Shown: piece after piece, positions 2,547-38,505 of the stretch | How the letters are laid out: every line of letters begins with the position of its first letter | Numbering within the stretch: the first letter of the stretch is position 1 | Source of the DNA: Oscillospiraceae bacterium | GTDB lineage: Bacteria > Bacillota > Clostridia > Oscillospirales > Acutalibacteraceae | Reading direction: 5' to 3' | DNA length: 38,682 nt | Assembly: GCA_902792985.1 (NCBI GenBank) | Contig: CADBBT010000012.1 | Span: forward strand, 32,881-71,562 | Made by a program: the position numbers and the translations under genes | Notes under the pieces: generated by a model | Seen by the model: the letters and a program-made list of their open reading frames with translations, nothing else | What the model was told of the DNA's origin: nothing | The model's database searches: none

Positions 2547-3274
2547 TTGTTATTTTGATGGCGTTTCTCGTTGGCGGCGCAACGATGTTCGGCGCGGCGG
2601 TCGGCTTCTTTTGCAAAGGCGCGTCCCATCGCTTTGCCGATCTCACAATGTCTGCGGCTGCGGGCGTGATGCTCGCGTCGTCTGTGGTGGGTCTGCTTCT
2701 GCCTGCGATGGATACCGGCGGACGGTTCGGTCTATTTGTGCTCTTCGGCGGTGTGGCGCTCGCCTGTGGAAGCATGGCGTTTTTTGAACGCTTGACGCCG
2801 CGGCTGGGTGCTCGGCTCGGCGCGGCGCAGGGCAGTCACAGCGCGCTTTTGTTTGTGCTTGTGATCGCAGTGCACAACTTTCCCGAAGGGCTTGCCGCCG
2901 GCGTCGGTTACGGCACAGAGCAAACGGCGCGCGCCACAGCGGTCGCGGTCGGTATCGCGCTGCAAAACCTGCCGGAGGGGATGGTCACGGTCGCGCCGCT
3001 GCTGGCAGCGGGCTTTTCTCCGCTGCGTGCGCTGCTGTTCGGCTTGTTCACCGGCGCGGTGGAGATCATCGGCACCTTGCTCGGCTATTTCGCCGTGCAT
3101 TTTTGCGCCGCACTGCTGCCGTTTTCGCTTGCGTTCGCCGGAGGGTGTATGCTGTATGTCATCTTCCGTGAAATGCTGCCTTCGGCCGATTCACCGAAAC
3201 AGGGGCGCAGCGCGGTCTTTGCGCTGCTGACGGGCTTTTGCATGATGCTTGCAATGGATCATCTGCTCTCTTGA
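2540..3274 (+). CDS. ZIP family divalent metal transporter (GufA/ZupT-like)
   Basis: A 244-residue membrane protein with about eight hydrophobic segments. The two ZIP metal-site helices are clear: AVHNFPEGLAAGVG (TM4, His-Asn-Pro-Glu) and LQNLPEGM (TM5). ZIP proteins take up Zn, Fe or Mn into the cytosol, and the exact ion cannot be told here. The ATG at 2540 follows GGAGGGG, and both lie inside a 15-bp hairpin. It is 59 bp downstream of icd on the same strand and has no obvious promoter of its own, so it may be co-transcribed and controlled at translation. Confidence 0.88.
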   Translation: MRLVILMAFLVGGATMFGAAVGFFCKGASHRFADLTMSAAAGVMLASSVVGLLLPAMDTGGRFGLFVLFGGVALACGSMAFFERLTPRLGARLGAAQGSHSALLFVLVIAVHNFPEGLAAGVGYGTEQTARATAVAVGIALQNLPEGMVTVAPLLAAGFSPLRALLFGLFTGAVEIIGTLLGYFAVHFCAALLPFSLAFAGGCMLYVIFREMLPSADSPKQGRSAVFALLTGFCMMLAMDHLLS

Positions 3275-3299
3275 CAAGGGGTAAAAAAGCGTGTAGAAT
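3271..3299 (+). promoter_or_regulatory. Promoter of the GH16 gene
   Basis: TTGACA (3271-3276), a 17-bp spacer and TAGAAT (3294-3299), a near-consensus housekeeping sigma promoter. The -35 box overlaps the stop codon of the ZIP gene. The ribosome-binding site AAGGAGG follows at 3313, giving a very short leader. Confidence 0.8.
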
Positions 3300-3327
3300 G
3301 AAGGAAAAAGCCAAGGAGGTATTTGCG

Positions 3328-4248
3328 ATGTTCAAACGTGCAATTTCTTTGCTGATTTCCTTTTTGATGCTGTTTTCCGTTTCCGCACCGGAAAAGCTGC
3401 TCGGTCTTCCGAAAATGGCGACAAAAACAGACCTTGACATGAGCAAATTCACGCTGACCTGGAGTGACGAGTTCGATGGCGACACGCTCGATATGAGTAA
3501 ATGGGACTACGAATGGTGGGTCACGGAGCGCAAGGGCGGTTTTTGGCATGAAGACATGGTTTCGGTGCGCGACGGCAATCTGGTGATCAAAGCGGAGTAT
3601 CTTGCAGAGCCTTTGACCTGCCGCTCTGATGCGGACTGGATCAAGCCCTATAAACCCGGCTACTACAGCGGGCAGGTGACGACCAACGGCAAATTTGAGC
3701 AGTGCTACGGCTATTTTGAGTGCCGCTGTATCCTTCCGGCCGCCTACGGACTGTGGTCGGCGTTCTGGATGATGAACGAGGGTGTATTCCATGTGGACGG
3801 CTCCGGCGAAGACGGCACTGAGGTGGACGTGTTTGAGTCGATGTATTATAAAGATCACTGGTGGGGCGCCGACGCGGTCGTGACAGGGATCCATTACGAC
3901 GGCTACGGCGAAGGGCATCACGGCGATTCCATCGGAAAATACTTTATGGAAAACGATCCCTATACCGAATACAACACCTACGGCGTGGAGTGGAATCCCG
4001 ATGAATACATTTTCTATATCAACGGCAAAGAGACGGGACGTCTTTCCACCGGCGGCGTGAGCGACAATCCGGAATACCTGCTGCTCTCTGTGGAGGTTGC
4101 GGGTGAAAACGGCGTTGCAGACGCTGACCGGCACGGCACGGGCAAGATCACCAAAACGCCGCAGGGCAACTGGCCGGCGGAGTTCAAGGTCGATTATGTG
4201 CGCGTGTATCAGTACAATGACCGTCTGGCGGACAGTCAGGCAGAATAA
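3328..4248 (+). CDS. Secreted glycoside hydrolase family 16 (beta-glucanase/laminarinase-like)
   Basis: A 306-residue protein. The ATG at 3328 lies 8 nt after a strong AAGGAGG, and the N-terminus is a signal peptide (MFKRAISLLISFLMLFSVSA), so it is exported. The GH16 active-site motif EVDVFE is at residues 165-170, with nucleophile Glu165, helper Asp167 and acid/base Glu170. This spaced ExDxxE form has the beta-bulge seen in laminarinases, agarases and related enzymes, unlike the shorter ExDxE of lichenases. WSDEFDG near the start and VDYVRVYQ at the end are typical GH16 borders. The likely substrate is a beta-1,3 or mixed-linkage glucan, but this is not determined by sequence. No anchor or carbohydrate-binding module is seen. 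Confidence 0.9.
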   Translation: MFKRAISLLISFLMLFSVSAPEKLLGLPKMATKTDLDMSKFTLTWSDEFDGDTLDMSKWDYEWWVTERKGGFWHEDMVSVRDGNLVIKAEYLAEPLTCRSDADWIKPYKPGYYSGQVTTNGKFEQCYGYFECRCILPAAYGLWSAFWMMNEGVFHVDGSGEDGTEVDVFESMYYKDHWWGADAVVTGIHYDGYGEGHHGDSIGKYFMENDPYTEYNTYGVEWNPDEYIFYINGKETGRLSTGGVSDNPEYLLLSVEVAGENGVADADRHGTGKITKTPQGNWPAEFKVDYVRVYQYNDRLADSQAE

Positions 4249-4265
4249 GCAAGGTTTCGGTTTCG

Positions 4266-4469
4266 TTTTTCGGCACAGCTTTGCTGCGCCGAAAAAAGCC
4301 GGGACGGGATTGCGCAGCGCCGCAGGCGCTGCGCAAAAACAGGCAGAGCAAAGAGACAGCGGATGTTTGCGCTTTTGCGCGGCGGCGTCTTTGCTCTGCC
4401 TGTTTTGCTGCGTGGAAACACGCAGCATCCCGTCCCGGCGGCTGCGTACGGCGCGAAGCGCCGTGCGCA
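4266..4469. repeat. Cloverleaf-like nested palindromic element A
   Basis: The element has a 5' hairpin (4266-4274 with 4288-4296, plus an inner CAGC/GCTG). A 12-bp closing stem follows, GCCGGGACGGGA (4298-4309) with TCCCGTCCCGGC (4428-4439). Inside it are three abutting hairpins: 4310-4336 (12 bp, GCA loop), 4337-4405 (18 perfect bp, 33-nt loop) and 4406-4427 (9 bp, GAAA loop). No nucleotide is unpaired at the four-way junction. A 3' hairpin sits at 4443-4469 (12 bp with one T:G, GAA loop). It lies between the convergent GH16 and lipase genes. Element B at 27380-27518 has the same plan with different stem sequences. Confidence 0.85.
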
Positions 4470-4485
4470 AAATCGGTGCAAAGTG

Positions 4486-4518
4486 CAAAAAACTGCCGCC
4501 GCAAAATGCAGCAGCAGT
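4486..4518 (-). terminator. Intrinsic terminator of the hydrolase operon
   Basis: On the minus strand, ACTGCTGCTGC, a 5-nt loop and GCGGCGGCAGT (two G:U pairs) are followed by TTTTTT. It lies 17 bp beyond the stop codon of the gene at 4536-6209. Confidence 0.75.
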
Positions 4519-4535: not shown

Positions 4536-6209
4536 TTATTTGCTGAGCTTTGAACGGATCAAGTTCAACAGGATGTTGAACACATTGAACAGCGACGTCA
4601 AAAAGCGCATCAGCTTTGACGGTCTGGTTTCTGTTTTCGGATCGATCGCTTTCCAGTTTTCGGTGTTGCAGTTCTCTGTGCTCATCGGTTCAAACGCGCC
4701 GGTCTCTTTGTTGAGCACAATGAACTGTGAATACCCGAAATCGTCGGTTGTGAGCTGGCGATCGGCCACACTGGCCGTGTAAAGGATCGCTTCCTCAAAA
4801 TCTGTCCAGTTGCCGTGGTTCACACCTTTGAGCACCCAGGTGGAATCCGGGAAGAGGCAGGTGGAAGTATCGACCTGATGATCCGGGGAAATGTATTTGC
4901 CGAGCCCCTTTTCCTGCTGGGCGCGGATATAATCGTCTGAAAGCGTGTTGTAAACTTCGGACGTTGTTGCGCCGAGCGTTGCATAGCGCAGGGAAGTGAA
5001 ATCGTCACCGACCCAATTGCGGGAGCGGCAGATCGGCGTCATCTGAAAACCGTATTTTCCGACAACGGCAACATTGCCGCCGTTTGCGGCAAAATCCTTC
5101 ATCGCGTCGTCCATCTTCAGACGGACATTGACGTGATAGTTCTCGATCTTTTGAATCAGACCTGCATATTTTTCGCGCTTTTCACTGCCTTCGGGGCCGA
5201 AAACATAGCGCATGGCATCGTTATAATCTTTGATGTTGACGCAGGACCAGTAGCCGGGGATGGTGAAATAGGTGGCCATTGCCAGCGCGTGCGTCACGCC
5301 TTCGACCATTTTGTTATAGATCGTTTCCTTCACAGCGGTACCGAGACCTTCCATGAGATGGGAACGCTCCATAAAGTCGATCAACTGCGGAACCCAGGCG
5401 TCGTACTTCAAGTCGTAGATGATGCGATAATCTTCAAGATAGCGGTTGATGGAATCGCCGTCTGTCTGAAACTTTCCGCTGATGGATTCGCTCATGGCGT
5501 TGTGACCGTAAGTCATGCCTGCGTCTAAACCAAAGCCCTTGATCTGATGTTTGCTGCCGTATTTGCAAAGATAGGCCATCACAAAGTTTGTTCCCAGGCA
5601 CCGTCCGACCAGACCGACCTGACTGTGTCCGGTCATTTCGCAGACAGCATTGATGAATGCGTCCAGCTCGTCGGCAACTTCAACAGGGTCTCTTCTCCAG
5701 TCATAACAGAACTGGTATTCACCGTAGCTGTAAGTGCTTTTGCTGTTGGGGGTTGTCATGCGGTTGATGTTCTCTTGAAGCCGGTCCTGCGCAATGCCTA
5801 CGCCGGGGCGCGGGTTGCCGTTTTCGTCCATTTGCATGGGCTCGGTCATTTCCGCAATCTCTTTTTCAAGGATCTCATAGTATTCATCGTATTTTCCCGC
5901 GATGATCGCTTCGGCAAAGCCTTTGAGGACATTGCGCGCGGAATCACCGGTGTCGCCCTCGCCCTCTTCTGCGCTTTCTTCCGAATCATCGTCGGAGAGC
6001 ATCTTGCTGAGGGTCTCCACAAAGGAATCGATTCTTTTGCCGTTTTCGTCATAAATGGACTCGCCGTCGCCCATTAACAAAACCATGGGGACGCTGCCGC
6101 TTCGTTGCGGCGTGATCGTTGCGGGGGCGGTGTTTTCTGCAAACGCGGGAACGAGCGTCCCGAACAGTAAAAGGATTGCCAGAGAGAGGGAAAGTGCTTT
6201 TTTCATCAT
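4536..6209 (-). CDS. Secreted LCAT-like alpha/beta hydrolase with Cys nucleophile (paralogue A)
   Basis: A 557-residue protein with an N-terminal signal peptide ending near AFA (residue 24). The arrangement YDWRRDP followed ~30 residues later by the nucleophile elbow VGRCLG (residues 201-206) resembles the lecithin:cholesterol acyltransferase/lipase family. However, the expected GxSxG has Cys204 (codon TGC, 5598-5600) in place of Ser. A late Asp in YISPDHQVD and His in KGVNHGNW could complete a Cys-His-Asp triad. Substrate is unknown; acylglycerols or phospholipids are guesses from the family. The 3' neighbour on the operon strand is a terminator, and the gene 43 bp upstream is a paralogue. 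AGGAGG precedes two adjacent ATGs (6209 and 6206), and either could be used. Confidence 0.7.
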   Translation of the reverse strand: MMKKALSLSLAILLLFGTLVPAFAENTAPATITPQRSGSVPMVLLMGDGESIYDENGKRIDSFVETLSKMLSDDDSEESAEEGEGDTGDSARNVLKGFAEAIIAGKYDEYYEILEKEIAEMTEPMQMDENGNPRPGVGIAQDRLQENINRMTTPNSKSTYSYGEYQFCYDWRRDPVEVADELDAFINAVCEMTGHSQVGLVGRCLGTNFVMAYLCKYGSKHQIKGFGLDAGMTYGHNAMSESISGKFQTDGDSINRYLEDYRIIYDLKYDAWVPQLIDFMERSHLMEGLGTAVKETIYNKMVEGVTHALAMATYFTIPGYWSCVNIKDYNDAMRYVFGPEGSEKREKYAGLIQKIENYHVNVRLKMDDAMKDFAANGGNVAVVGKYGFQMTPICRSRNWVGDDFTSLRYATLGATTSEVYNTLSDDYIRAQQEKGLGKYISPDHQVDTSTCLFPDSTWVLKGVNHGNWTDFEEAILYTASVADRQLTTDDFGYSQFIVLNKETGAFEPMSTENCNTENWKAIDPKTETRPSKLMRFLTSLFNVFNILLNLIRSKLSK

Positions 6210-10580: not shown

Positions 10581-11013
10581 GCAGGAATGCCGCGCTTTGC
10601 TGCAGCAGGCGCGCCGCGGTGTGCTTGCTGTGGGCGGCGACAACGGCTACCCCTATGCGGTGCCGATGAATTTTTATTTCGACGAGGCAAAGGGGAGCAT
10701 CTATTTTCACTGCGCGCGTGAAGGGCACAAGCTTGACGCGATCCTGCGTGATGAAAAGGTCTGCTTCACAGTCATCGGCGGCGACGTCAAGCGCGACGAT
10801 TGGGCGTGGTATGTGAAAAGCGTGATCGTGTTCGGCGAAGCACAAAAAGTGACGGACGAGGCAGCAAAGGACGCCTGTCTGCGCGCGCTTGCAAAAAAAT
10901 ACTTCCCGCCCGAAGAGGACGTGGAGGCCGATATGGCGCGCAACGCCGCCCGGGCAATCGTGGTGGAGATCAAGATCCGCCACATGACAGGCAAACTGGT
11001 CCATGAGCGTTGA
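10540..11013 (+). CDS. Pyridoxamine 5'-phosphate oxidase-like flavoprotein (Nim-like)
   Basis: A 157-residue split-barrel FMN protein. ALSEQECRALLQQARRGVLA, followed by GYPYAVPMNFYFDE and IYFHCAREGHKLD, is the pattern of the PNPOx-related family that includes 5-nitroimidazole-resistance (Nim) proteins. Distant homologues of this kind are abundant in Clostridia, and resistance should not be assumed. AAGGAGG lies about 9 nt before the ATG at 10540, inside the YitT gene, giving a 41-bp overlap in another frame. Confidence 0.82.
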   Translation: MFRPMRRFKQALSEQECRALLQQARRGVLAVGGDNGYPYAVPMNFYFDEAKGSIYFHCAREGHKLDAILRDEKVCFTVIGGDVKRDDWAWYVKSVIVFGEAQKVTDEAAKDACLRALAKKYFPPEEDVEADMARNAARAIVVEIKIRHMTGKLVHER

Positions 11014-11152
11014 CGAAGGTTTTATGAAGAATGAAACTGAATGAGTGAAGCGCAGAGCCAACCGTTTGCCTGAATTTGACTATGCACAGAACGGTGTATA
11101 TTTTTTGACGATATGTACACAAAACAGAGCGCAAGTGCTCTCCATTGTTTCC

Positions 11153-11174
11153 GTAGGGGCGGCCAGTGGCCGCC
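11153..11174 (+). repeat. REP palindrome 1 (inside the RAYT gene)
   Basis: GTA followed by GGGGCGGCCAGTGGCCGCC, a near-perfect palindrome GGCGGCCA/TGGCCGCC. The same unit recurs at 25760 and 25921 and, inverted, at 11321 and 27689. Confidence 0.85.
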
Positions 11175-11320
11175 AGCCGCAAGTGCAACTCACGGGCGTC
11201 GGTGAAATCGTGGCGCAGACTTTGGAGGAAATACCGCTGCGCTATTCGCACGTTTCGGTGGATCATTATGTGATCATGCCGGATCATGTACATTTGCTGC
11301 TTCGCGTGGAAAGAAAGAGC

Positions 11321-11343
11321 GGGCGGCCGCTGGCCGCCCCTAC
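11321..11343 (-). repeat. REP palindrome 2, inverted (inside the RAYT gene)
   Basis: GGGCGGCCGCTGGCCGCCCC then TAC: the same unit in opposite orientation, 146 bp after palindrome 1 and also in frame. Confidence 0.85.
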
Positions 11344-11531
11344 GGTCTCACATATTGTGAACCAGTGGAAAGGAGCCGTGACGAGACGGCTGGGAAAAGC
11401 GATCTGGCAAAAGGGGTTTTATGACCATATTGTGCGAGATGTTTATGACTATCAGGTCAGATGGCAGTATATGGAAGAAAACCCTCAAAGATGGCTGCAA
11501 AAAACAGAACAACTTGAAAGGACGTGACAAC

Positions 11532-11918
11532 ATGAATCCAAAAATATATAAAACTTTTCAACAGTCCGAGCTGGACGCGGTGCTGATGTATCGCGCACTC
11601 GCGCAAAACGCAAAAAGCGACGCGGAAAAAACGCTGCTGCTGCGTTTGGGGGCGATCGAAGGCAAACACGCGGCGGTGCTGCGCGGCATTACGGAAAACG
11701 GCGAACTGCAGCCGACGGACGCGATGGCGAAACCCATTGCGCTGCTCGAACGCTTTGCGGGGCGGCGGGTGACCTATTTTCTTGTTTCGCTCGGCGAAAA
11801 GGCGGCGTATTATCTTTATCAGCCGCTGGCAAAGCAGCACCCGGAGCTGCAGGTCAACGCAAAAGAGGAGACCGACCACGGCAATACCCTGCAGTGGCTG
11901 GCCAAGGCGATCAAATAA
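11532..11918 (+). CDS. Rubrerythrin/ferritin-like diiron protein
   Basis: A 128-residue all-helical protein. Four iron-ligand type motifs are visible: SELDA in helix 1, EGKHAA (ExxH) in helix 2, GEKAAYYLY in helix 3 and ETDHG (ExxH) in helix 4. There is no rubredoxin domain, so electron supply must come from another protein. Members detoxify peroxide or store iron in anaerobes. The ATG at 11532 follows AAAGGA, just after the RAYT stop. Confidence 0.8.
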   Translation: MNPKIYKTFQQSELDAVLMYRALAQNAKSDAEKTLLLRLGAIEGKHAAVLRGITENGELQPTDAMAKPIALLERFAGRRVTYFLVSLGEKAAYYLYQPLAKQHPELQVNAKEETDHGNTLQWLAKAIK

Positions 11919-11949
11919 AAACGGCGGTCATTCCGATGGGAGTGACCGC
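11916..11949 (-). terminator. Terminator of sigE, possibly bidirectional
   Basis: An 11-bp hairpin (11924-11934 with 11939-11949) has a TTTTT run on the minus side (complement of 11917-11921), 51 bp after the sigE stop. On the plus strand only a weak TTTT follows. Confidence 0.65.
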
Positions 11950-12000
11950 TGAAGTTTTACGGATCAAAGCAAAACGGGGAAATGGCCGGTTTGTCTGAAT

Positions 12001-12762
12001 TTATGATGACGGTGTTCCGCCCGTCTCTTCGCCCGCCGCCGCCGTCTCCTGTGCCGTCAGTTCGTCGCGCAAGCGGGCGATGATGCGCTTTTCCAGCCGC
12101 GAGATATAGCTTTGCGAGATGCCGAGCTTGTCTGCGACCTGCTTTTGTGTGTATTCCTTTGAACCGAACAGCCCGAAGCGCAGCGTCATGATCTCCTTTT
12201 CGCGTGCGTCAAGCTGCCGCACAAGATCGAGCAACCGGCTTTTTTCGTCGCGGCTTTCCAAATCGCGGCTGATCTCGTCGCTGTCGGAGCCGAGCACGTC
12301 GCACAGCAGCAGCTCGTTGCCGTCCCAGTCCACATTCAGCGGCTCGTCGATGGAAACCTCGTTTTTGCGGCCGGCGCATTTGCGCAGATACATGAGGATC
12401 TCGTTTTCAATGCAGCGTGACGCGTAGGTGGCAAGCTTGATCTTTTTGGACGGCCGAAACGTGTTCACCGCCTTGATCAGCCCCACCGTGCCGATGGAGA
12501 TCAGGTCCTCGATGCCGACGCCGGTGTTTTCAAACTTGCGCGCAATGTAGACCACCAGCCGCAGATTGTGCACGATCAACCGGTCGCGGCTGTGCGCATC
12601 GCCGCGCTCCAGCGCTTCCAGCGCCTGCGCCTCCTGCTTTTTGCTCAGCGGCTCCGGCAGCGTCTGTGCCCCGCCGATGTAATGGATTTCGCTTTTGTGC
12701 AGCCCCAGCGCGCGAAACAGTGCGCGTTTGCATTTTTGAAGGGCTCTTTTTATTTTTTGCAT
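12001..12762 (-). CDS. sigE: RNA polymerase sporulation sigma factor SigE
   Basis: A 253-residue sigma-70 family factor. The core region 2 ([56 protein letters not shown]) and the region 4 helix-turn-helix ([20 protein letters not shown]) match SigE/SigK type factors. The ~25 residues before region 1 would be the pro-sequence removed by SpoIIGA, the gene immediately upstream. The start at 12762 overlaps the spoIIGA end by 13 bp. A longer frame to 12894 reads into spoIIGA and is not needed. SigE directs early mother-cell gene expression during sporulation. The sigG gene that often follows is absent here: a diiron gene on the other strand comes next. Confidence 0.94.
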
Positions 12763-13619
12763 ACGATCACATTCATTTCTTCCATCAGATTCGGGTGCAG
12801 CAGCGCGCCGAAGTCGCCGCCGCAAAGCGGTGTGTCGGACACCGCGATATAAACGTCCGCGGTGCGCAATTCTCCGTCGGGACCGTGGATGCACACCTCG
12901 TCTGGGCGAAACCCGGGCAGCGTGCGGAGCCCTGTCAGCGCATGGCAGGGGATGGAGCGCACATGCAGCGCCGCGGCGCAGTCCGGCGCGTTCAGATCTT
13001 TTTCCGCAAGCAGTTCGTGCAGCACGTCTTTGTATACGACGATCACCGGCAGGGCGGAAAACGGTTCGGTCAGCCGGTTGCCGCTGTCCAAAAACGCGCT
13101 GCAGCGCGCCTGCTTTTTTTCAAGCGTGATCGTCAGACGAAACAGGCTTTGCGCCGGTGCTCTTGCGCCGAGCAGCAGATGCAGCACATAAAACAGCGCG
13201 TAGCAGATCACGGTCAGTATCACGAGCAGCAGCGTGTCGATGTTGAAATACACCACGCTGCCGAAGTACAGCATGGATTTCGGGTGCAGGGTGTGCCAAA
13301 GCGCGAACATCAGCCCCGCAAAGACGAAGTTGACCGCGAAAAACACTGCATACAGCAGCAAAAACCGCTTGCGGCTGCCGCATCCGAACGCAACAAGCAC
13401 AAACACCGCCGCAGCAAGCAGACGCAGCAAAACGAGCAGCAGCTTGGACGAAAGGGGAAAAAAGATCACGAACGCGAACGCGCCGCCGAGCAAAGCCGCA
13501 ACTGTGCGGCGCAGCCGGCTGCCGTGCGCACGGCAAAGCAGGTCGGTCGCCAGCAGCAGCGCAAACGTGACATAGGCGTTGAGCACGAATAAAATGTCTG
13601 CGTAAACCACAACACGCAT
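12750..13619 (-). CDS. spoIIGA: Sporulation sigma-E processing peptidase SpoIIGA
   Basis: A 289-residue protein with about five N-terminal transmembrane helices (residues 1-150) and a C-terminal aspartic-protease-like domain. The catalytic motif [11 protein letters not shown] places the active Asp at residue 178, as in Bacillus SpoIIGA. It sits in the septal membrane, is activated by SpoIIR from the forespore and cleaves pro-SigE. GAGGTGA lies just before the ATG at 13619. Co-location with sigE makes the call firm. Confidence 0.93.
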
Positions 13620-13637
13620 GCGCTCACCTCGCCATTC

Positions 13638-13671
13638 AGTATAGCGCAGCTTTGTCGCAAAGCGTGTCGAG
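13638..13671 (-). promoter_or_regulatory. Possible spoIIG promoter with Spo0A-box-like sites
   Basis: A minus-strand TATACT (13638-13643) lies 18 bp upstream of the spoIIGA start. TGTCGCA (13653-13659) and TGTCGAG (13665-13671) on the plus strand each differ by one base from the 0A box TGTCGAA. No good -35 is present, as in Spo0A-activated spoIIG promoters. The sites are short and degenerate. Confidence 0.4.
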
Positions 13672-13688
13672 TTCTGTTGCGCTGCAAA

Positions 13689-13719
13689 AGAAAAAAGGCC
13701 GGTGACCGACCTTTTTCTT
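13689..13719 (-). terminator. Terminator between thyX and spoIIGA
   Basis: AAAAAAGGCCGGT, GA, CCGACCTTTTT forms a short GC-rich hairpin with T-runs on both strands, 20 bp after the thyX stop. It separates thyX from the spoIIG operon. Confidence 0.7.
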
Positions 13720-13738
13720 TCTTGTTCACAGATGCGGC

Positions 13739-15121
13739 TTATTCCGCGTCGCTTTCTCCGAGAAAGCGGCGGCGCATTTCCTGCATCTGCCCGCAGCACA
13801 TGCGCCCTTCGGGACACTTGCCGTCGATCACGCAGCTCGGACCGAAGCGGGCGAACAGCAGGGGGTTGTCTTTGCGCAAAAGGAAGAGCAGTTCAGTTGC
13901 CAGCGCGCGGATCTCCCACTGCGCACGGTTGCAGGTGCGCAGCTTCAAAAACAGCCGCAGCTCCCGGGCGTTCATCGTGGTCACAAAGTCGATCACGTTG
14001 CCGGAGAGGAGCACATAGACCAGATCATCTTCGCTGACGCCCTCGGCCTTGAACGCGTCATAGAGCGCCGCGGTGGAGGAAAACGCGTCAAGATACAAGT
14101 CGAGCAGTTCCGGCATTTCTTTGATGACAGGGGGGATGATGTGGCTTTGGCGATCGCAGACCGACAGCGACGGAATGGCGATGCTCTGCATCCTGTGCCG
14201 CGCAAAGTGGGTCAGTGTGGAAAGGGAAACGTCGCTGAACCGCACGGTGAAGTTCGCCATCTCCAGCGCGCGCGGGCGTCCGCTTTGCACAACAGCGTCA
14301 AGCGTCTGAAGCAGCGCGGCGTCATCCTTCAGCGTTTCGTCGGCGTCTGCCACGGTGCAGCAATAGCGCTCCATGAGGGCAGATTTTGCCACAAGGCGTC
14401 CGGCGTCCGGTGTGCAGGAAAGCAATACGACGGCCGGCTGCGCACTTTGAGAACCGCTGCTTTTTTTGAGCGGCGGCAGCGGCAAAGTGTCGCAGTAAGC
14501 GGCGTTCTTTTCTTCAAAATCGCCGAACACGCCCGGAGCGGCTTCTTTGCACTGCTTCAAAAGCTGTGCGCCGATGGCGCGGATCTCCGCGTTTTTGCTG
14601 CCGCGTCCGAAAAGCATGGCGCGCAAAACGCCAAGCAGCTCGCGCCCGTTCAAAGAGCAGAAGAAGTTGGAATAAAAGCAGTAGGGCAGAACAAAACGCG
14701 CGTCCTCTTTGGGAATGCCGCGTTCGCAAAGGGTGCCGTAAAGGGCAAAGAGCTTGTCCATCTGCGCGGTGTAGCGCGCCTTCTGGCTGTCATTCAGCGC
14801 ATCGGGAATGTGATAGCCGCAATCGGCAAAATCCACATAGCGGCGGGATTTGACCGTGAAAGACGCGAGGCGGAACTCGATCATGAACTGTTCGACCGCC
14901 ACGGAGACATTTTCAAACGCGAGGTTGAAGAAAATGTGCTCCACCGTTGAGGTGTGGCCGGAAGCGGTCACCTTGGTTATGAGGTTTGCGTTTTTTTCTT
15001 TGTCACGCGAACGCTCCATAATTTCGAGCGCCGTGCCTTTTTGCGTGGAGATCCTGCCGGCGGCAGCGCAGACCGCTTCGCCGCAGGAGGACACGCCGAT
15101 GATGTATGCGCCGTGGTTCAT
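13739..15121 (-). CDS. Tandem two-domain FAD-dependent thymidylate synthase-like protein (ThyX x2)
   Basis: A 460-residue protein, about twice the usual ThyX length, that reads as two ThyX domains. The N-half has GHTSTVEHIFFNLAFENVSV then EFRLASFTVKSRRY (82-95), keeping RxxS...SxRY but with RHR changed to EFR. The C-half has ARHRMQSIAIPSLSV (307-321), keeping RHR but lacking the SxRY end, plus the dUMP-binding-type LRTCNRAQWEIR near residues 394-405. ThyX converts dUMP to dTMP using FAD, NADPH and methylene-THF. The halves may complement each other across a composite site. A four-Cys tail (430-443) is unusual. ATG 15121 follows AGGAAG; a GTG at 15130 is too close to it. Confidence 0.78.
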   Translation of the reverse strand: MNHGAYIIGVSSCGEAVCAAAGRISTQKGTALEIMERSRDKEKNANLITKVTASGHTSTVEHIFFNLAFENVSVAVEQFMIEFRLASFTVKSRRYVDFADCGYHIPDALNDSQKARYTAQMDKLFALYGTLCERGIPKEDARFVLPYCFYSNFFCSLNGRELLGVLRAMLFGRGSKNAEIRAIGAQLLKQCKEAAPGVFGDFEEKNAAYCDTLPLPPLKKSSGSQSAQPAVVLLSCTPDAGRLVAKSALMERYCCTVADADETLKDDAALLQTLDAVVQSGRPRALEMANFTVRFSDVSLSTLTHFARHRMQSIAIPSLSVCDRQSHIIPPVIKEMPELLDLYLDAFSSTAALYDAFKAEGVSEDDLVYVLLSGNVIDFVTTMNARELRLFLKLRTCNRAQWEIRALATELLFLLRKDNPLLFARFGPSCVIDGKCPEGRMCCGQMQEMRRRFLGESDAE

Positions 15122-24076: not shown

Positions 24077-25686
24077 TCCGGATCCGAGAAATCAAACAAA
24101 GCCTGGACGCCGACCGCGACGATCTTTTACGCGCGGCGGCAAAGGCCTTACATATCGAGCCGCGGCAGATTCAATCGCTCACGCTGGTGCGGCGTTCGAT
24201 CGACAGCCGCAAAAAAGACGACGTGCATTTTCGTTTCACCGTGGATATCGCCGTTGACGGCGACGAGGACCGCATCCTTGCAAAAACGGCCAATCCGAAG
24301 GTAGAAAAAGCGCACGATCCGGTCTATGAGATGCCGGAAAACCGCCGCGTTTCTTCCCTGCGCCCGGTGATCGTCGGTTTCGGCCCCGCCGGAATCTTTG
24401 CGGCGCTGGTGCTCGCACGCGCAGGGCTGCGGCCATTGGTGCTTGAACGCGGGGTGGATGTTGAAACGCGCACGCGCGACATTCAGCGCTTTTTTGAAAC
24501 CAAACAGCTCAACACGGAATCGAACGTCCAGTTCGGTGAGGGCGGGGCAGGCACATTTTCCGACGGCAAGCTGACGACCGGTATCAAGCACCCGTTCTGC
24601 CGTTTTGTATTTCGGGAGTTTTATGAACACGGCGCACCGGAGGAGATCCTGTATTCCGGCACGCCGCACATCGGCACAGACAAGCTTGTCCATGTTATCC
24701 GCGCCATGCGGGAGGAGATCCTTGCCCGCGGCGGCGAGGTGCTGTTTGGCGCAAAGCTTACGGACCTCATCATCTACAACGCCTCCGTTCAGGGCGTCAG
24801 CTATGTCCGAAACGGGCAGTCGGCTGATTTTGAAACCGACACGGTGATCCTCGCCATCGGGCATTCGGCGCGTGACACGGTGCAGATGCTGCATCGGCGC
24901 GGACTTTCCATGATGCAAAAGCCGTTTTCGGTCGGCGCGCGGATCGAACATCCCAGGGAATGGATCGACAAAGCGCAGTACGGCGCGTTTGCCGGACATC
25001 CGCATCTGCCGGCGGCGGTGTATAAGCTGGCGTGTCACGGCGAACACGAGCGCGGCGCATATACTTTTTGTATGTGTCCGGGCGGTACAGTCATATCCGC
25101 AACAAGTGAAGAACGCGGCGTTGTGACAAACGGCATGAGTGAGTTTGCGCGCGACCGGGAGAATTCCAACAGCGCGCTGCTCGTCAACGTCTATCCCGAA
25201 GATTTCCCCTCGGCGCATCCGCTCGCGGGGTTCGAATTGCAAAAAACAATGGAGCATACCGCCTTTGACCTCGGCGGCGGTGGATATGCCGCGCCGTGTC
25301 AGCTTGTCGGTGATTTTCTTGCCGGGCGCGCGTCAAAGCGCCTTTCCTTTGTGAAGCCCAGCTTTTCCACCGGTGTCACACCATCGGATATTCGCCGGTG
25401 TCTGCCGCAAAAAGTGACGGACACCATGGCCGGTGCGATCGTGCAGATGGACAAAAAGCTGCACGGCTTTGCGCTGCCGGACGCTGTTTTGACCGCGCCG
25501 GAAAGCCGCAGCTCGTCGCCTGTGCGCATTTTGCGCGACGACATCATGCAATCGAACGTGCGCGGCGTATATCCCTGCGGTGAAGGCGCCGGTTACGCCG
25601 GCGGGATCGTTTCGGCGGCGGTGGACGGCATCAAATGCGCCCACGCGGTGCTTGCGGACGAAAGCGAATGGAACAAGCGCACGTGA
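24073..25686 (+). CDS. Uncharacterised FAD-dependent dehydrogenase (COG2509-like)
   Basis: A 537-residue protein with a short N-terminal domain (MIRIREIKQS ... SIDSRKKDDVHF), then the FAD motif VIVGFGPAGIFAALVLARAG at about residues 98-117, QFGEGGAGTFSDGKLTT, and a C-terminal GEGAGYAGGIVSAAVDG. The family is common in Clostridia but has no settled reaction. GGAGGG lies just before the ATG, which overlaps the previous stop (ATGA). The pair of flavoproteins may share a pathway. This is the last gene of the ten-gene plus-strand run. Confidence 0.85.
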   Translation: MIRIREIKQSLDADRDDLLRAAAKALHIEPRQIQSLTLVRRSIDSRKKDDVHFRFTVDIAVDGDEDRILAKTANPKVEKAHDPVYEMPENRRVSSLRPVIVGFGPAGIFAALVLARAGLRPLVLERGVDVETRTRDIQRFFETKQLNTESNVQFGEGGAGTFSDGKLTTGIKHPFCRFVFREFYEHGAPEEILYSGTPHIGTDKLVHVIRAMREEILARGGEVLFGAKLTDLIIYNASVQGVSYVRNGQSADFETDTVILAIGHSARDTVQMLHRRGLSMMQKPFSVGARIEHPREWIDKAQYGAFAGHPHLPAAVYKLACHGEHERGAYTFCMCPGGTVISATSEERGVVTNGMSEFARDRENSNSALLVNVYPEDFPSAHPLAGFELQKTMEHTAFDLGGGGYAAPCQLVGDFLAGRASKRLSFVKPSFSTGVTPSDIRRCLPQKVTDTMAGAIVQMDKKLHGFALPDAVLTAPESRSSSPVRILRDDIMQSNVRGVYPCGEGAGYAGGIVSAAVDGIKCAHAVLADESEWNKRT

Positions 25687-25759
25687 GCAGGGAACAGGAA
25701 TCAGGGAACAGGGAACAGGAATCAGAAATCAGGGGTCAAGGAACAGAAAAGACGAAACC

Positions 25760-25783
25760 GTAGGGGCGGCCAGTGGCCGCCCG
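25760..25783 (+). repeat. REP palindrome 3
   Basis: GTA then GGGGCGGCCAGTGGCCGCC then CG, in the first copy of the 161-bp unit. Confidence 0.85.
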
Positions 25784-25920
25784 TGTGTCGGGCACGCTCG
25801 AACCCTGTTGATGAGGGTCGCTGATCCTTTTAATATCTGATGTACAGAACTTGCACAGAGAGCAGGTTACAGGTAACAGGGGACAGGAATCAGGGGTCAA
25901 GGAACAGAAAAGACGAAACC

Positions 25921-25944
25921 GTAGGGGCGGCCAGTGGCCGCCCG
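25921..25944 (+). repeat. REP palindrome 4
   Basis: Identical to palindrome 3 and exactly 161 bp after it, in the second copy of the unit. Confidence 0.85.
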
Positions 25945-26111
25945 TGTGTCGAGCACGCTCGAACCCTGTTGGCGTGGATCGCTGATCCTTTTAATTTCCG
26001 ATGTACAGAATTTGCACAGGGAGCAGGTTACAGGTTACAGGGGACAGGTTACAGGAAACAGGGGGGCGGCGATGGCTACCCTTTTTCTTTATGAGAAATA
26101 CACCATTGCTC

Positions 26112-26140
26112 TTGACGAAACGGCGTCGTCCTTTTATAAT
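26112..26140 (+). promoter_or_regulatory. Promoter of the SGNH hydrolase gene
   Basis: TTGACG (26112-26117), 17 bp and TATAAT (26135-26140), 31 bp upstream of the ATG at 26172. Confidence 0.82.
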
Positions 26141-26171
26141 AGAACCAGACCAATCAAAGCGGGGGAAGCAG

Positions 26172-27341
26172 ATGAAACAATGGGTCCAGTGCTGGGGACA
26201 AGCGCACGCGCCGCTTTCGGCGTTTTCCTTTGACGATCGCTGCCGCACGGTGCGCCTTGTGCTGAAAACCACAATCAGCGGCGCTGCCGTGCGGGTACGC
26301 CTTTCCAACGAATACGGGAAAACCGATTTGCAGCTGGGCGGCGTATCAGCCGCGCATTGCGACAAAAACGGCAACCTCACCGGCGACAGTGTGGATCTTT
26401 CCGCGCCGAAAAAGCTGGCAATAGGTGCGTGCGTCATCACAGGTGAAGCGAAGCTGCCTGTGAGCGCAGGCGATTATTTTTGCGTGAGCGTCTGTGTGCG
26501 TTCCGGAAAGCTCACAAGCGGCAACTTGATGAGCGACGCGCGCTGCTTGCTGCTTGCAGGCGACCGGCGCCACAGCATTTTTGTGGAGCCCCGGCTGCGG
26601 CTCAATGACCGTGTGCGCCACGCGGCAACGGGTCTGCTGTCCATCCCGCTGCAAACGCCCGTTCCCTTGTTTGAAACCGTGGAGCTCTTCAACGAAACCG
26701 GCGCAAGGTCGATCGTTGTCTTCGGCGATTCGCTCAGTCAGCAGGGCTTTTGGGTAAAACCATTTACCGCGCGCGTTTGCGCCGCGTTCCCCGGACGTTT
26801 CAGTGTGATCAATCGTTCCATCATGGGCAACCGCGTGCTGCGTGACGCTTCGCCGGTCTTTGTGCTGAAGGGGTTTTACGGCGTTTCGGCAAAGGCGCGG
26901 CTGGCACGCGACGTGCTGCAGTATAAAGATGTTTCCCATGTGATCTTGATGCTTGGCGCAAACGATCTGCTGCATTACGCGACGATCAGCGGCCGGCCGA
27001 ACGAACGGCCCTCCCTTGCGGCGCTTGCTGACGGGCTGTTTATGCTCTCCCGTGAAATGCAAAGCCACGGCATCCGCGTGATGGGGTCAACGCTCGTCAA
27101 CTTCCGCGACGGTGTGGACGCGACGCAGGAAAAGAGCGATTTGTGCGACCTTGTGAACACGCTCATTCGTGCCGGCGCCGATCATTTTGATGCGCTATTT
27201 GACCTTGCTGCCGTGACCGGCGACCCTGAACGGCCGCAGCACACGCGCGCGGATTTTGTCGGCGGCGACAAGCTGCATTTTAATGCCGCCGGAGGAGATG
27301 CGATCGCGCAGGCGATGGAGCTGGCGTTTTTTGAAAAGTGA
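26172..27341 (+). CDS. Two-domain SGNH/GDSL hydrolase
   Basis: A 389-residue protein. The N-terminal ~170 residues are a beta-rich domain (VQCWGQAHAP ... VRVRLSNEYG) common in front of GDSL esterases. The SGNH part has VVFGDSLSQQG (Ser), NRSIMGNRV (Gly), LMLGANDLLHY (Asn) and GGDKLHFN (Asp-x-x-His). Carbohydrate-ester or lipid substrates are known for relatives; none is implied here. No signal peptide is seen. It has its own promoter and starts at ATG 26172 after GGGGGAAG. A longer in-frame extension back to 26001 consists of repeat sequence and is rejected. Confidence 0.87.
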   Translation: MKQWVQCWGQAHAPLSAFSFDDRCRTVRLVLKTTISGAAVRVRLSNEYGKTDLQLGGVSAAHCDKNGNLTGDSVDLSAPKKLAIGACVITGEAKLPVSAGDYFCVSVCVRSGKLTSGNLMSDARCLLLAGDRRHSIFVEPRLRLNDRVRHAATGLLSIPLQTPVPLFETVELFNETGARSIVVFGDSLSQQGFWVKPFTARVCAAFPGRFSVINRSIMGNRVLRDASPVFVLKGFYGVSAKARLARDVLQYKDVSHVILMLGANDLLHYATISGRPNERPSLAALADGLFMLSREMQSHGIRVMGSTLVNFRDGVDATQEKSDLCDLVNTLIRAGADHFDALFDLAAVTGDPERPQHTRADFVGGDKLHFNAAGGDAIAQAMELAFFEK

Positions 27342-27379
27342 ATGATCTCAAGGCTGTTGCTGTGTGCGGCGGCCTTTTT

Positions 27380-27518
27380 TGCGCACGGCACTGCCGTGCG
27401 CACGTGGCGGCGAGACCGCGCAGCGAAGCTGCGCGAAACGGTGCGCACAGCGCGCCGTTTGCCTTGCGCCGCAGGCGCAAGGCGTCTCGCCGCCTGCTGT
27501 TGCGCAGCGAAGCTGCGC
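27380..27518. repeat. Cloverleaf-like nested palindromic element B
   Basis: The plan matches element A. A 5' hairpin (27380-27402, 10 bp, ACT loop) precedes a closing stem GGCGGCGAGAC (27406-27416) with GTCTCGCCGCC (27484-27494). It encloses three abutting hairpins: 27417-27435 (8 bp, GAA loop), 27436-27460 (11 bp with one T:G, ACA loop) and 27461-27483 (10 bp, GCA loop). Again no base is unpaired at the junction. A 3' hairpin GCGCAGC/GCTGCGC with GAA loop sits at 27502-27518. It begins 38 bp after the SGNH stop, between convergent genes. Confidence 0.85.
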
Positions 27519-27615: not shown

Positions 27616-27688
27616 TTGCTTTTGTGCTTTTTTGGCGGCTGTTTTGCATGAGAGCCCGTCCTTTTTTGCAGTAGTTCTCTATAAAAAA

Positions 27689-27712
27689 CGGGCGGCCAAT
27701 GGCCGCCCCTAC
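27689..27712 (-). repeat. REP palindrome 5, inverted
   Basis: CGGGCGGCCAATGGCCGCCC then CTAC, in the orientation opposite to palindromes 1, 3 and 4. It lies 28 bp beyond the ilvE stop, next to short GACTAAC repeats (27717-27741). Confidence 0.85.
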
Positions 27713-27740: not shown

Positions 27741-28805
27741 TTAAACAGTCACGCGCCAGCCGCGCGTGTCTTCGCGCTTGCCCCACTGGATGCCGGTCAG
27801 CTCGTCATAGAGCTTCTGGGTCAGCTCGCCGATGCTGCCGTCGCCGATGTTCATGACCTCGTCTTCATAGCGCAGCTTGTTGACGGGAGAGACCACAGCG
27901 GCAGTGCCGGTGCCCCAGACTTCTTCAAGGGAGCCGTCCTTCGCTGCGGCAACGAGCTCATCCACGCTGATGCGGCGCTCTTCCACTTCGTAGCCCCAGT
28001 CGCGGCAAACGGTGAGGATGGAATCGCGGGTGACGCCGGGCAGGATGGAGCCGTTGAGCATCGGGGTGACAACTTTACCGTTGATCTTGAACATGATGTT
28101 CATCGCGCCGACTTCTTCAATGTATTTGCGCTCCACGCCATCCAGCCAAAGCACTTGAGAATAACCGTCGTCGTGCGCTTTGACCTGCGCGATCAGGCTG
28201 GCAGCGTAGTTGCCGCCGGTCTTGGTGAAGCCCATGCCGCCTCTGACAGCGCGGACATATTCGTCTTCGATCCAGATGCCGACCGGCTCAAGACCGCTTT
28301 CGTAGTAAGCGCCGGAGGGGGAGAGGATGACGATGAACAGGTAGGTCTTGGAAGGTGCAACGCCGAGGAATTCGTCGGTTGCAATGATGAACGGACGAAT
28401 GTACAGCGACGTGCCGGGATCGGTCGGGATCCAGTCGCGGTCAACGTCAACAACCGCTTTCACAGCGTCCACAAAGTCTTCCACCGGCAGTTCGGGGATC
28501 ACAAGACGCTTGTTGGAGTTGTTCGCGCGCTTGGCGTTCATGTCCGGGCGGAACAGATACACGCTGCCGTCCTCGCCCTTGTAGGCTTTCAGACCTTCGA
28601 ACATCTCCTGACCGTAATGGAACACCATGGCGGACGGCGCAAGGGACAGATTCTGATAGGGAACGATGCGGGCGTCATGCCAGCCCTTGCCCTCGGTGTA
28701 GTTCATGACGAACATGTGGTCGGTGAAGATCTTGCCGAAACCGAGCGGTTGACCCGGCGCGGGTTTTTGCTTCGGAGAAGTGGTTTTTGTGATTTTGATT
28801 TCCAT
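27741..28805 (-). CDS. ilvE: Branched-chain amino acid aminotransferase
   Basis: A 354-residue class IV PLP enzyme of the BCAT II type, exchanging amino groups between Leu/Ile/Val and 2-oxoglutarate. The PLP lysine is Lys195 in GFTKTGGNYAASL. FHYGQEMFEGLKAY, LYIRPF and YIEEVGAMNIMF are BCAT motifs. AAAGGG lies 9 nt before the ATG. It is the last gene of the acyl-CoA synthetase/oxidoreductase cluster, so its 2-oxoacid products would be direct substrates of the neighbouring ferredoxin oxidoreductase. Confidence 0.95.
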   Translation of the reverse strand: MEIKITKTTSPKQKPAPGQPLGFGKIFTDHMFVMNYTEGKGWHDARIVPYQNLSLAPSAMVFHYGQEMFEGLKAYKGEDGSVYLFRPDMNAKRANNSNKRLVIPELPVEDFVDAVKAVVDVDRDWIPTDPGTSLYIRPFIIATDEFLGVAPSKTYLFIVILSPSGAYYESGLEPVGIWIEDEYVRAVRGGMGFTKTGGNYAASLIAQVKAHDDGYSQVLWLDGVERKYIEEVGAMNIMFKINGKVVTPMLNGSILPGVTRDSILTVCRDWGYEVEERRISVDELVAAAKDGSLEEVWGTGTAAVVSPVNKLRYEDEVMNIGDGSIGELTQKLYDELTGIQWGKREDTRGWRVTV

Positions 28806-31540: not shown

Positions 31541-32209
31541 TTATATAAGTTTTTCCTGCAGATGCAGCGGAAATACGTTTTCGTCCGCCAGCGCTTTTGC
31601 GTTGGCCAAATCTTCGCGCACGCTCGTCATCACCAGCGGCAGGCCGGAAAGCTCGCTCAATCTGCGCGCCTTTTCGCCGCTTGCAAGGATGTCTTCCACG
31701 GCCGTTTCGTCGCCGATGTTGGAATTGTTGACGATGCCGGTGAACGGCAGGTGACACGCCGCTTCGATCTCGCGCAGCACCGCAAACGCTTCTTGCGGCG
31801 TTTTGGTCAACGGACGGAAAAAGTTTGCAACAAAAAGCATATCGTAATTGCCTTCCGCTTTGATCTGGTCGGCGAACCGGCCCAGCGCAACGGCGCCCTG
31901 ATCGTCGCCGCCGATGTCGAGCACACAAAACGTATTGTGGTCGGCGATCGGCCGCTGCATCGCGGCAGGCAAAGCGGGGATGTCGAGGTTCGACCCGGCA
32001 TAATCGGAGCAGATCAGCTCCACACCGGCGGCATCCAGCTCCTTTTGGCTGTCCTTCGTGCGAAAATAGGGGTTCACGATGTCAAGGTCCAGAATGGAAA
32101 CCTTTTGGTGCGCCTGCCGAAGATGCAGAGCGAAGTTCACGGCAATGTTCGTTTTTCCGCTGCCGTAGTGGCCGCAAAAGATCGTAATGCGTTTGGGGTG
32201 GTTGGACAT
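31541..32209 (-). CDS. ParA/MinD-like P-loop ATPase
   Basis: A 222-residue ATPase with Walker A FCGHYGSGKTN near the N-terminus, KVSILDLDIVNPYFRTKD as the SIMIBI-class switch region and FCVLDIGGDDQG as Walker B. The lysine-first deviant motif of MinD is not present. It stands in line with the oxidoreductase genes, 41 bp before the delta subunit. A role in complex assembly or cofactor loading is a guess from context only. Confidence 0.8.
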   Translation of the reverse strand: MSNHPKRITIFCGHYGSGKTNIAVNFALHLRQAHQKVSILDLDIVNPYFRTKDSQKELDAAGVELICSDYAGSNLDIPALPAAMQRPIADHNTFCVLDIGGDDQGAVALGRFADQIKAEGNYDMLFVANFFRPLTKTPQEAFAVLREIEAACHLPFTGIVNNSNIGDETAVEDILASGEKARRLSELSGLPLVMTSVREDLANAKALADENVFPLHLQEKLI

Positions 32210-32220
32210 AGAAACCTCCA

Positions 32221-32456
32221 GATGAGGGATTGAGGGGTTGAGGGATTGAGGGATTGAGGGATTGAGGGATTGAGGGATTGAGGGATTGAGGGATTGAGGA
32301 ATTGAGGGGTTGAGGGGTTGAGGGATTGAGGGATTGAGGGATTAAGGGATTGAGGGGTTGAGGGGTTGAGGGGTTGAGGGATTGAGGGGTTGAGGGATTG
32401 AGGAATTGAGGAATTGAGGGATTGAGGAGTGGAAGAATTGAGGGGCTGAGAAATTG
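32221..32456. repeat. 8-bp GGGATTGA array (G-rich plus strand)
   Basis: About 28 tandem copies of GGGATTGA with variants GGGGTTGA and GGAATTGA. Four GGG runs separated by five bases recur many times, which meets the usual G-quadruplex pattern. It lies between the synthetase and ATPase genes on the strand opposite to their mRNA. Confidence 0.9.
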
Positions 32457-32469
32457 AGAAGTTAATCAG

Positions 32470-32541
32470 GAACTTTATCCCCTTATCCCCTTATTCCCTT
32501 ATTCCCTTATCACCTTATTCCCTCATTCCCTCATTCCCTTC
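32470..32541. repeat. TTATTCCC/TCATTCCC array (C-rich plus strand)
   Basis: About eight units of TTATCCCC, TTATTCCC and TCATTCCC: the complement type of the preceding array, starting 14 bp after it. The two can form an imperfect inverted repeat. It touches the stop of the synthetase gene. Confidence 0.85.
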
Positions 32542-35533: not shown

Positions 35534-35675
35534 CAGGTAAAAACGAGGAAAAACCCCATTTTTCGATATTTTGGCTGATAGTCTGAACATTGCCGCCTTT
35601 TGAGTTTTGGTTTTGTGCAATTTGACAATGTGGTAGAAAAACGCTGGTGCAATGTGCACAATTGGGCAGTGGTTA

Positions 35676-35926
35676 GTGGTTAGCAGTCAGGGGACAGGGA
35701 ACAGGGAACAGGGGACAGGGAACAGGGGACAGGGATTAAGGGAATGAGGGAATGAGGGAATGAGGAATTGAGGGATTGAGGGAATGAGGGAATGAGGGAA
35801 TGAGGGATTGAGGGAATGAGGGATTGAGGGAATGAGGGATTGAGGGAATGAGGAATGGAGGGATTGAGGAATTAGGGGATTGAGGGATTAAGGAATTAAG
35901 GAATTAAGGAATTAAGGGATTGAGAA
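35676..35926. repeat. Mixed GGGAACA and GGGAATGA/GGGATTGA simple-repeat tract
   Basis: It opens with GGTTAGTGGTTAG and GGGGACAGGGAACAGG heptamers, like those at 25690, then passes into the 8-bp array seen at 32221, and ends in GGAATTAA units. GGG runs with short loops recur throughout. It fills most of 35590-35930; no gene is visible there. Confidence 0.88.
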
Positions 35927-38428: not shown

Positions 38429-38505
38429 CGCGGAGTAGAGCAACCCGGTAGCTCGTCGGGCTCATAACCCGGAGGTTGTAGGTTCAAATCCTACCTCCGC
38501 AACCA
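38429..38505 (+). tRNA. Initiator tRNA-fMet (CAT anticodon)
   Basis: A 77-nt cloverleaf with encoded CCA. The acceptor stem CGCGGAG/CTCCGCA leaves a C1:A72 mismatch, and the anticodon stem has three consecutive G:C pairs (GGG, CTCATAA, CCC). Both are hallmarks of the bacterial initiator tRNA. The T-arm is GTAGG-TTCAAAT-CCTAC. Confidence 0.95.

Follow-up and report, generated by a model that had tools for sequence, protein, structure and literature searches.

A dispersed five-hairpin cloverleaf element at gene ends, with stable places and exchanged copy sequences, in three genomes of one clostridial genus

Introduction

REP, BIME and REPIN sequences are dispersed extragenic palindromes that, according to passages of PMC3733652 and PMC3116915, consist of one or two palindromes of 20–40 bp, lie mainly downstream of genes, between unidirectional or converging genes, can be folded into larger structures and occur as several sequence families per genome. 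Bidirectional intrinsic terminators combine an A-tract/T-tract hairpin with a position between converging genes and evolve by compensatory change; in Bacillus cereus RNA terminators, as far as sections of PMC5381666 report, 79% of double changes are of the AT-GC type and G.U is tolerated above its A.C counterpart. Paired change together with loop inversion is the footprint of template switching between hairpin arms described in excerpts of PMC8794818, and hairpins maintained in this way are reported from RNA genes and yeast coding sequence in parts of PMC8794818 and PMC8604942. In E. coli, inverted repeats with cruciform potential cluster beyond stop codons and near the ends of genes; the longer ones are mostly parts of intrinsic terminators, and the passages of PMC6060812 concerned describe no dispersed family with a fixed multi-hairpin plan.

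Here we analyse an element found in a stretch of 38,682 nt from an Oscillospiraceae bacterium, which as a whole we call the window. Like REP, BIME and REPIN sequences, the element is a dispersed extragenic palindrome located mainly downstream of genes, with larger folds and more than one sequence family. Unlike these sequences, as they are presented in the passages cited, it has five hairpins and a four-way junction without unpaired bases, its cloverleaf has neither a GTAG/CGTC tag nor a linked RAYT, and copy sequences are exchanged at fixed loci. It shares with bidirectional terminators the tract-bearing middle hairpin, the converging genes and the compensatory evolution, but an outer stem encloses this hairpin together with two others that abut it, part of the copies have no tracts, and AT-GC type switches are fewer than in the portion of PMC5381666 consulted. 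Perfect stems, paired changes and inverted loops (spacers) are features it has in common with template-switch maintained hairpins, here in a dispersed multi-hairpin bacterial repeat, and its location at gene ends resembles that of the E. coli inverted repeats. The literature searched contained no description of such an element.

Results

Fold of elements A and B

Element A (positions 4266–4469 of the window) consists of an outer stem enclosing three abutting hairpins, with one further hairpin on either side, and folding bears out the original prediction of a cloverleaf without unpaired bases at its junction. The parts of the elements are given without strand. The 5′ arm of the outer stem (4298–4310) pairs with the 3′ arm (4427–4439) over 13 perfect base pairs, where 12 had been predicted. 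Inner hairpin 1 (h1, 4311–4335) has 11 bp and attains the predicted 12 bp only if 4310/4336 is counted there; inner hairpin 2 (h2, 4336–4406) pairs 4336–4354 with 4388–4406 over 19 perfect base pairs instead of 18; and the 8–9 bp of inner hairpin 3 (h3, 4407–4426) agree with the predicted 9. The h2 loop holds a further small hairpin, and the base of h2 carries AAAA on the 5′ side and TTTT on the 3′ side, in the manner of a bidirectional terminator. The left flanking hairpin (4266–4296; 14 bp with one A.C mismatch) has the order T...A, in line with the earlier remark that T-runs lie on the wrong side of the first hairpin, and the right flanking hairpin (4443–4469) contains one G.T pair. When A is read on the − strand, these two are by eye of the GCGCAGC type and the GCGCACGGC type, the usual right (HpR) and left (HpL) flanking hairpins of the general plan, respectively. 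A + strand gene of glycoside hydrolase family 16 (3238–4248; PF00722) precedes A, and a − strand gene with a weak alpha/beta-hydrolase match (4536–6209; PF00561, 24.8 bits at a cut-off of 25.8) converges on it, which places the element between convergent genes as predicted.

Both strands fold strongly. The RNA fold of 4240–4500 on the + strand reaches −163.5 kcal/mol (z = −12.0), the DNA fold of the − strand has z = −12.1, and in each case none of 200 shuffles was as low in energy. A sequence-blind finder, which demands a perfect outer stem and three hairpins with at most 2 bases between neighbours, recognised two elements in the window, A and B, whereas 10 shuffles that preserve its dinucleotides gave 0.0 on average. 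As the shuffles yield none, and neither does the sequence sampled from other genera of the family (below), chance palindromes in GC-rich sequence were rejected, in line with the original view that the nesting is too exact for chance.

Element B had originally been named without coordinates; we took it to be the second-strongest fold of the window (27380–27518). It follows the same plan as A and also lies between converging genes, a GDSL lipase gene on the + strand (26001–27341; PF13472) and a class IV aminotransferase gene on the − strand (27741–28805; PF01063). HpL (27380–27402) is followed by the 5′ arm of the outer stem (GGCGGCGAGAC, 27406–27416), which pairs with the 3′ arm (27484–27494) around h1 (27417–27435), h2 (27436–27460, with AAA...TTT ends) and h3 (27461–27483), and HpR (27500–27518) closes the element. 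Immediately before B, a separate intrinsic-terminator-like hairpin with a T-run occupies 27350–27380 on the + strand.

General plan of the unit

The element set comprises 112 cloverleaves from three genomes: that of the window (own genome), RUG11928 and RGIG3704. The unit spans about 150–200 bp and is built of a hairpin, an outer stem around three abutting hairpins, and a second hairpin; by eye, the order from the GCGCACGGC hairpin side is HpL, outer stem, h1, h2, h3, outer stem, HpR. Also by eye, the outer stem usually reads GGCGGCG(R)(R)AC, h1 often CGCGC(A/G)GC and HpR often GCGCAGC-GAA-GCTGCGC, h3 is variable, and some copies have their flanking hairpins swapped or missing. All junctions are free of extra bases in 75 of the 112 elements, and hairpins flank the core within 50 nt on both sides in 75, on one side in 27 and on neither in 10.

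The middle hairpin often takes the form AAAA..stem..TTTT, with a loop longer than 45 nt in 30 of 112 cases. Ends of at least three A and at least three T are found on the middle hairpin in 71 elements, A and B included, compared with 4 for h1 and 3 for h3. The earlier statement that the element is not a known terminator is thus only half right, since from its tracts the middle hairpin looks like a bidirectional intrinsic terminator. Termination cannot explain everything, however: A/T tracts are absent from 41 of the 112 middle hairpins, and only 40 of 112 elements have within 150 nt a separate hairpin of terminator type that is oriented towards them (3 of 92 at control positions).

Copies in the own genome and in related genomes

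A BLAST search of B against the own genome gave 25 hits including B itself. Sequence surrounding the hits of A and B was retrieved as 18 stretches. The strict finder recognised a cloverleaf in 12 of them, and folding showed the same plan in two (L015 and L023); a contig end or masked bases interrupt another three. An exact outer-stem pattern matched the own genome 26 times forward and 27 times in reverse, which merge into 27 places; the pattern read backwards had no match. A covariance model built from 26 short cores gave 67 matches in the own genome with both strands counted, or 49 places after merging overlapping coordinates; A is too divergent to be matched by this model, so that the copy number lies above 49 places. 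Counted in the same way on both strands, RUG11928 has 101 matches and RGIG3704 has 63.

These two metagenome-assembled genomes (MAGs), recorded as a Ruminococcaceae bacterium (RUG11928) and as a Clostridia bacterium from goat rumen (RGIG3704), were named as further carriers by a contig scan, of which one additional hit, in an Enhydrobacter MAG, was without a cloverleaf. Both reappear in the genus search (G179 and G161) with identical coordinates and scores and are thus species of the same genus. An absence of further copies from related genomes, which would have told against the original proposal, is contradicted by dozens of copies in the own genome and in these two. Among 34 genomes of the genus, seven had matches to model R1, three of them many (60, 96 and 57 at E 0.001) and four (G152, G159, G171 and G003) one or two; with strict filters, model R1 found one positive among 150 genomes of the family, the own genome. 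No cloverleaf reached a score of at least 25 in a sample of 348 kb drawn from five further genera of this family.

Hits of other sequence (L110, L113 and L271–L273) were likewise recognised as cloverleaves by the finder, so that the plan is wider than the sequence family. By elimination, L110 and L113 belong to G003, and L271 and L272 come from G152 and G159; L273 was placed in G171 because an identical sequence recurs in L305. The sequence-blind scan found three cloverleaves at a score of at least 28 in 160 kb of G003 (shuffle mean 0.0), none in 94 kb of G138, and three at a score of at least 24 in 539 kb of ten further genomes of the genus, the last count being without shuffle control. Another cloverleaf sequence family is present in L201 and L202 (G003) and L305 (G171), with GGCGGCCG or GGCGGCTG as outer stem and hairpins of GTGCGGC, TTTGCCG and ACAAAACC; most of its cloverleaves adjoin a GTCCCGCC or GGCGGGAC motif. 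The GCACGGC hairpin occurs 30, 45 and 37 times in the three carrier genomes and not at all in six others.

Many cloverleaf matches lie at contig ends or within about 300 bases of them (contigs C66, C24, C17, C45, C19, C29, C26, C58 and C7 of G151 and contigs C31, C46, C37 and C24 of the own genome, G000). This suggests that assemblies may break at cloverleaf elements; with several copies coinciding with the contig ends of MAGs, such elements may be under-reported.

Gene context

Gene context was derived from a codon model trained on the loci themselves, because crude picking of open reading frames ran spurious frames through the palindromes. Context could be placed for 99 of the 112 elements, 11 being too near a locus end and 2 being without gene calls. 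Convergent genes surround 55 of these elements, tandem genes 41 and divergent genes 3, and none lies inside a gene; the neighbouring gene pairs of the same loci, element gaps included, comprise 62 convergent, 307 tandem and 59 divergent pairs (convergent enrichment, p = 2e-16; divergent depletion, p = 0.0015).

Stable places and exchanged copies

Both flanks were matched in the RGIG3704 sequence analysed for 17 own elements, two of them neighbours at one locus; 22 others lacked a flank match in that sequence. The RGIG3704 counterpart contains a cloverleaf in 16 of the 17 cases (13 by the finder and 3 by folding), the place of the 17th (L101) is taken by about 3 kb of other sequence (L251, about 10889–13944), and a clean empty site was found for none of the 17. 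At one locus (L027 in the own genome, L266 in RGIG3704) two different cloverleaves stand side by side between converging genes and are kept in both genomes.

At 12 of 16 loci shared by the own genome and RGIG3704, the orthologue shows greater similarity than the best paralogue of either genome. With RUG11928, nine loci were matched, seven on both flanks and two on one, A and B among them, and at all nine the best paralogue of each genome surpasses the orthologue in similarity. This comparison is tilted towards the paralogue, which is the highest value among about 38 copies, and at the lowest values it says no more than that the orthologue does not exceed an unrelated copy. Pairs of copies that agree at 80% or more over a length of 70 nt or longer have dissimilar flanks in 52 of 69 cases in the own genome and in 173 of 190 in RUG11928. 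As judged by this comparison, the places are stable between species and the copy sequences are exchanged. The strongest unexplained fact about the element is that its geometry and its place persist through the replacement of its sequence. Synteny with RUG11928 breaks near the element at both L162 and L188, the only two loci examined in this respect, and from these two the elements may be rearrangement points.

Paired changes in stems and inversion of loops

Stems were compared in 16 orthologous pairs that the finder recognised in both the own genome and RGIG3704, a selection that favours intact structure and that was not imposed on the 17 elements compared by their flanks; the placement of all 16 was checked (11 on both flanks and 5 on one), and one pair (L103/L179) is poorly aligned. 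Of 873 aligned stem pairs, 827 are unchanged, 21 show double Watson-Crick changes and 25 are changed on one side (5 G.T, 8 A.C and 12 other); 31 further pairs fall in gaps. One-sided changes thus account for 25 of the 46 changed pairs, and the 21 double changes compare with 1.3 expected if both sides changed independently. Element A displays such paired change directly: RGIG3704 has C-G for T-A at the innermost outer-stem pair and h1 base pair, and the h3 of this orthologue carries a further nested hairpin. Compensatory changes, whose absence would have told against the original proposal, are present as paired substitutions in the orthologues.

Divergence amounts to 43% in loops of equal length, 17% in flanks and 3.8% in stems. 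Conserved stems enclose 54 loops, of which 16 are identical and 38 changed; exact reverse complements make up 6 of the 38, compared with 0.88 expected by permutation (p = 0.0002). Conservation of shape under changing sequence suggests that the folded shape itself matters. Only 10 of the 21 double changes are of the AT-GC kind, a share lower than the 79% given for Bacillus cereus in sections of PMC5381666 (p = 0.0015); a low share also fits copying of arms.

Action at the RNA or DNA level

If pairing were selected on the transcribed strand, a tolerance of G.U above A.C would be expected. Read along transcription, the elements in tandem contexts have 11 G.T and 13 A.C; tandem and convergent contexts together, the latter having no preferred strand, have 27 and 24. 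The ordinary terminator hairpins of the same loci have 47 G.T and 29 A.C, and the difference between 27:24 and 47:29, although in the expected direction, is not significant (p = 0.36) and leaves room for action at the RNA level. Should h2 act as a terminator, the two arms of the outer stem would not occur together in one RNA, whichever side transcription came from. The balance of G.T and A.C, the AT-GC share and a terminating h2 together favour, without proving, action at the DNA level.

Comparison with known families

In a search of both strands out to 45 nt from the core, GTAG was present at 5 and CGTC at 32 of 112 elements, compared with 24 and 53 of 94 control positions 600 nt away, so that both REP tags are depleted at the elements. 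Matches to Y1_Tnp number 3 in the own genome, 2 in RUG11928 and 1, a weak one, in RGIG3704; their loci (L210–L216, 20 kb) contain no cloverleaf at a score of at least 25, and no transposase or other machinery linked to the elements was found. RAYT-driven REP/REPIN was rejected on these grounds, and by eye the two flanking hairpins usually differ in sequence, unlike the inverted pair of REP copies around the spacer of a REPIN. What the elements do share with REP/BIME is their dispersal as extragenic palindromes past the ends of genes, with an excess between convergent ones; they are not filed as REP/REPIN because neither tag nor transposase linkage was found and the flanking hairpins usually differ.

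At the gathering score, Rfam assigned no family to A or B, and its only match in the window is a tRNA (38429–38502); permissive matches in six loci (L138, L048, L006, L035, L113 and L098) are all below the cut-offs, and a known RNA family was rejected. Phage cargo was also rejected: among 19 viral stretches with the outer-stem pattern, and for that outer-stem sequence only, none contains a cloverleaf.

Discussion

We give about an even chance to the reading that the element is a REP/BIME-like dispersed structural DNA repeat, in which the central hairpin would serve as a bidirectional terminator, template switching and selection would maintain the stems, and copies would overwrite one another. 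The elements consist of near-perfectly complementary hairpins, with paired substitutions in orthologues and hypervariable, sometimes inverted loops. Their arms may form hairpins or cruciforms in the DNA, where template switching between arms would re-perfect stems and flip loops. The tract pattern points to h2 as a putative bidirectional intrinsic terminator for the flanking genes, as a result of which copies at gene ends would be tolerated or useful; RNA polymerase coming from either side would stop at h2, and the complete cloverleaf would thus rarely be contained in one RNA. The outer stem would then be kept for a reason at the DNA level, either as a substrate of spreading or conversion or for a junction-binding protein. 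Places that comparison shows to be stable between species, with copy sequences exchanged, would reflect an element that spreads or is overwritten from copy to copy within the genome in the manner of BIME/REPIN.

Three options had been offered originally, a structured RNA, a cruciform and a non-autonomous mobile element, and a cruciform-like dispersed DNA element fits best. A strand-specific RNA is disfavoured by G.T not being favoured over A.C, a result that is not decisive. A structured 3′ RNA in the untranslated regions of both converging genes, which would protect or regulate mRNA ends under selection for pairing on both strands, could account for the extreme folding, the paired substitutions and the location downstream of genes, and its action on both strands would explain why stems at converging genes are Watson-Crick only. 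Such a role is quite unlikely, given the G.T to A.C ratio in tandem contexts, the middle hairpin, which where it bears tracts would end the transcript before the outer stem could form, and the Rfam results for A, B and the six loci. Similar copies in unrelated flanks would suit a mobile element, but no clean empty site was found. An active non-autonomous transposon of MITE or REPIN type, moved as a single strand by an HUH or other transposase in trans and surviving as insertions at gene ends, would agree with those similar copies, with a defined unit bearing conserved flanking hairpins such as GCACGGC, and with the lack of copies inside genes and their scarcity in divergent gaps. Retention of 16 of 17 elements at their places in RGIG3704, the lack of clean empty sites and of a linked Y1_Tnp, and the depletion of REP tags argue against active transposition, which we consider unlikely.

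A chromosome-organising element, whose junction would be a DNA recognition site (a Holliday-junction mimic or a site of the gyrase/HU type) and form a topological boundary between transcription units, is distinctly improbable: no binding protein is known, and many copies in only 3 of 34 genomes of the genus by model R1 would be odd for a core function, even though convergent enrichment, the 75 elements without an extra junction base, conserved places and an architecture kept when sequence is exchanged all agree with it. In a further reading, which we hold to be unlikely, the selected object would be the DNA four-way junction itself, as a genome-wide set of cloverleaves resembling Holliday junctions. 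Their sequence would be free to vary and constantly rewritten by template switching and conversion between copies, and their geometry would be held because a junction-binding protein or enzyme recognises shape instead of sequence; the placement at the ends of transcription units and the occurrence of the same geometry with unrelated sequences in other species of the genus would belong to this picture.

In each of three comparable species, the genome supplies natural replicates of the element by the dozen, with geometry conserved and sequence turning over. This makes testable (i) whether complex DNA foldbacks exist and are processed in vivo, (ii) whether template switching maintains long perfect stems in bacteria and (iii) whether dispersed extragenic palindromes are selfish or useful at gene ends.

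Apart from the cloverleaves, the window contains a separate GTAG-containing palindromic repeat (CCGTAGGGGCGGCCAGTGGCCGCC) resembling a classical REP at 11151–11345, 25758–25781, 25919–25942 and 27684–27712, two copies of which flank and enter a Y1_Tnp-like stretch at 11201–11443 (G000:C12:44081-44323). A 161-bp tandem duplication at 25694–26015 carries the REP-like repeat, arrays of CAGGGAACAGGGGACAGG-type 7-base units occupy 25667–26077 and 35667–35748, and long arrays with an 8-base period are found at 32145–32541 and from 35643 on.
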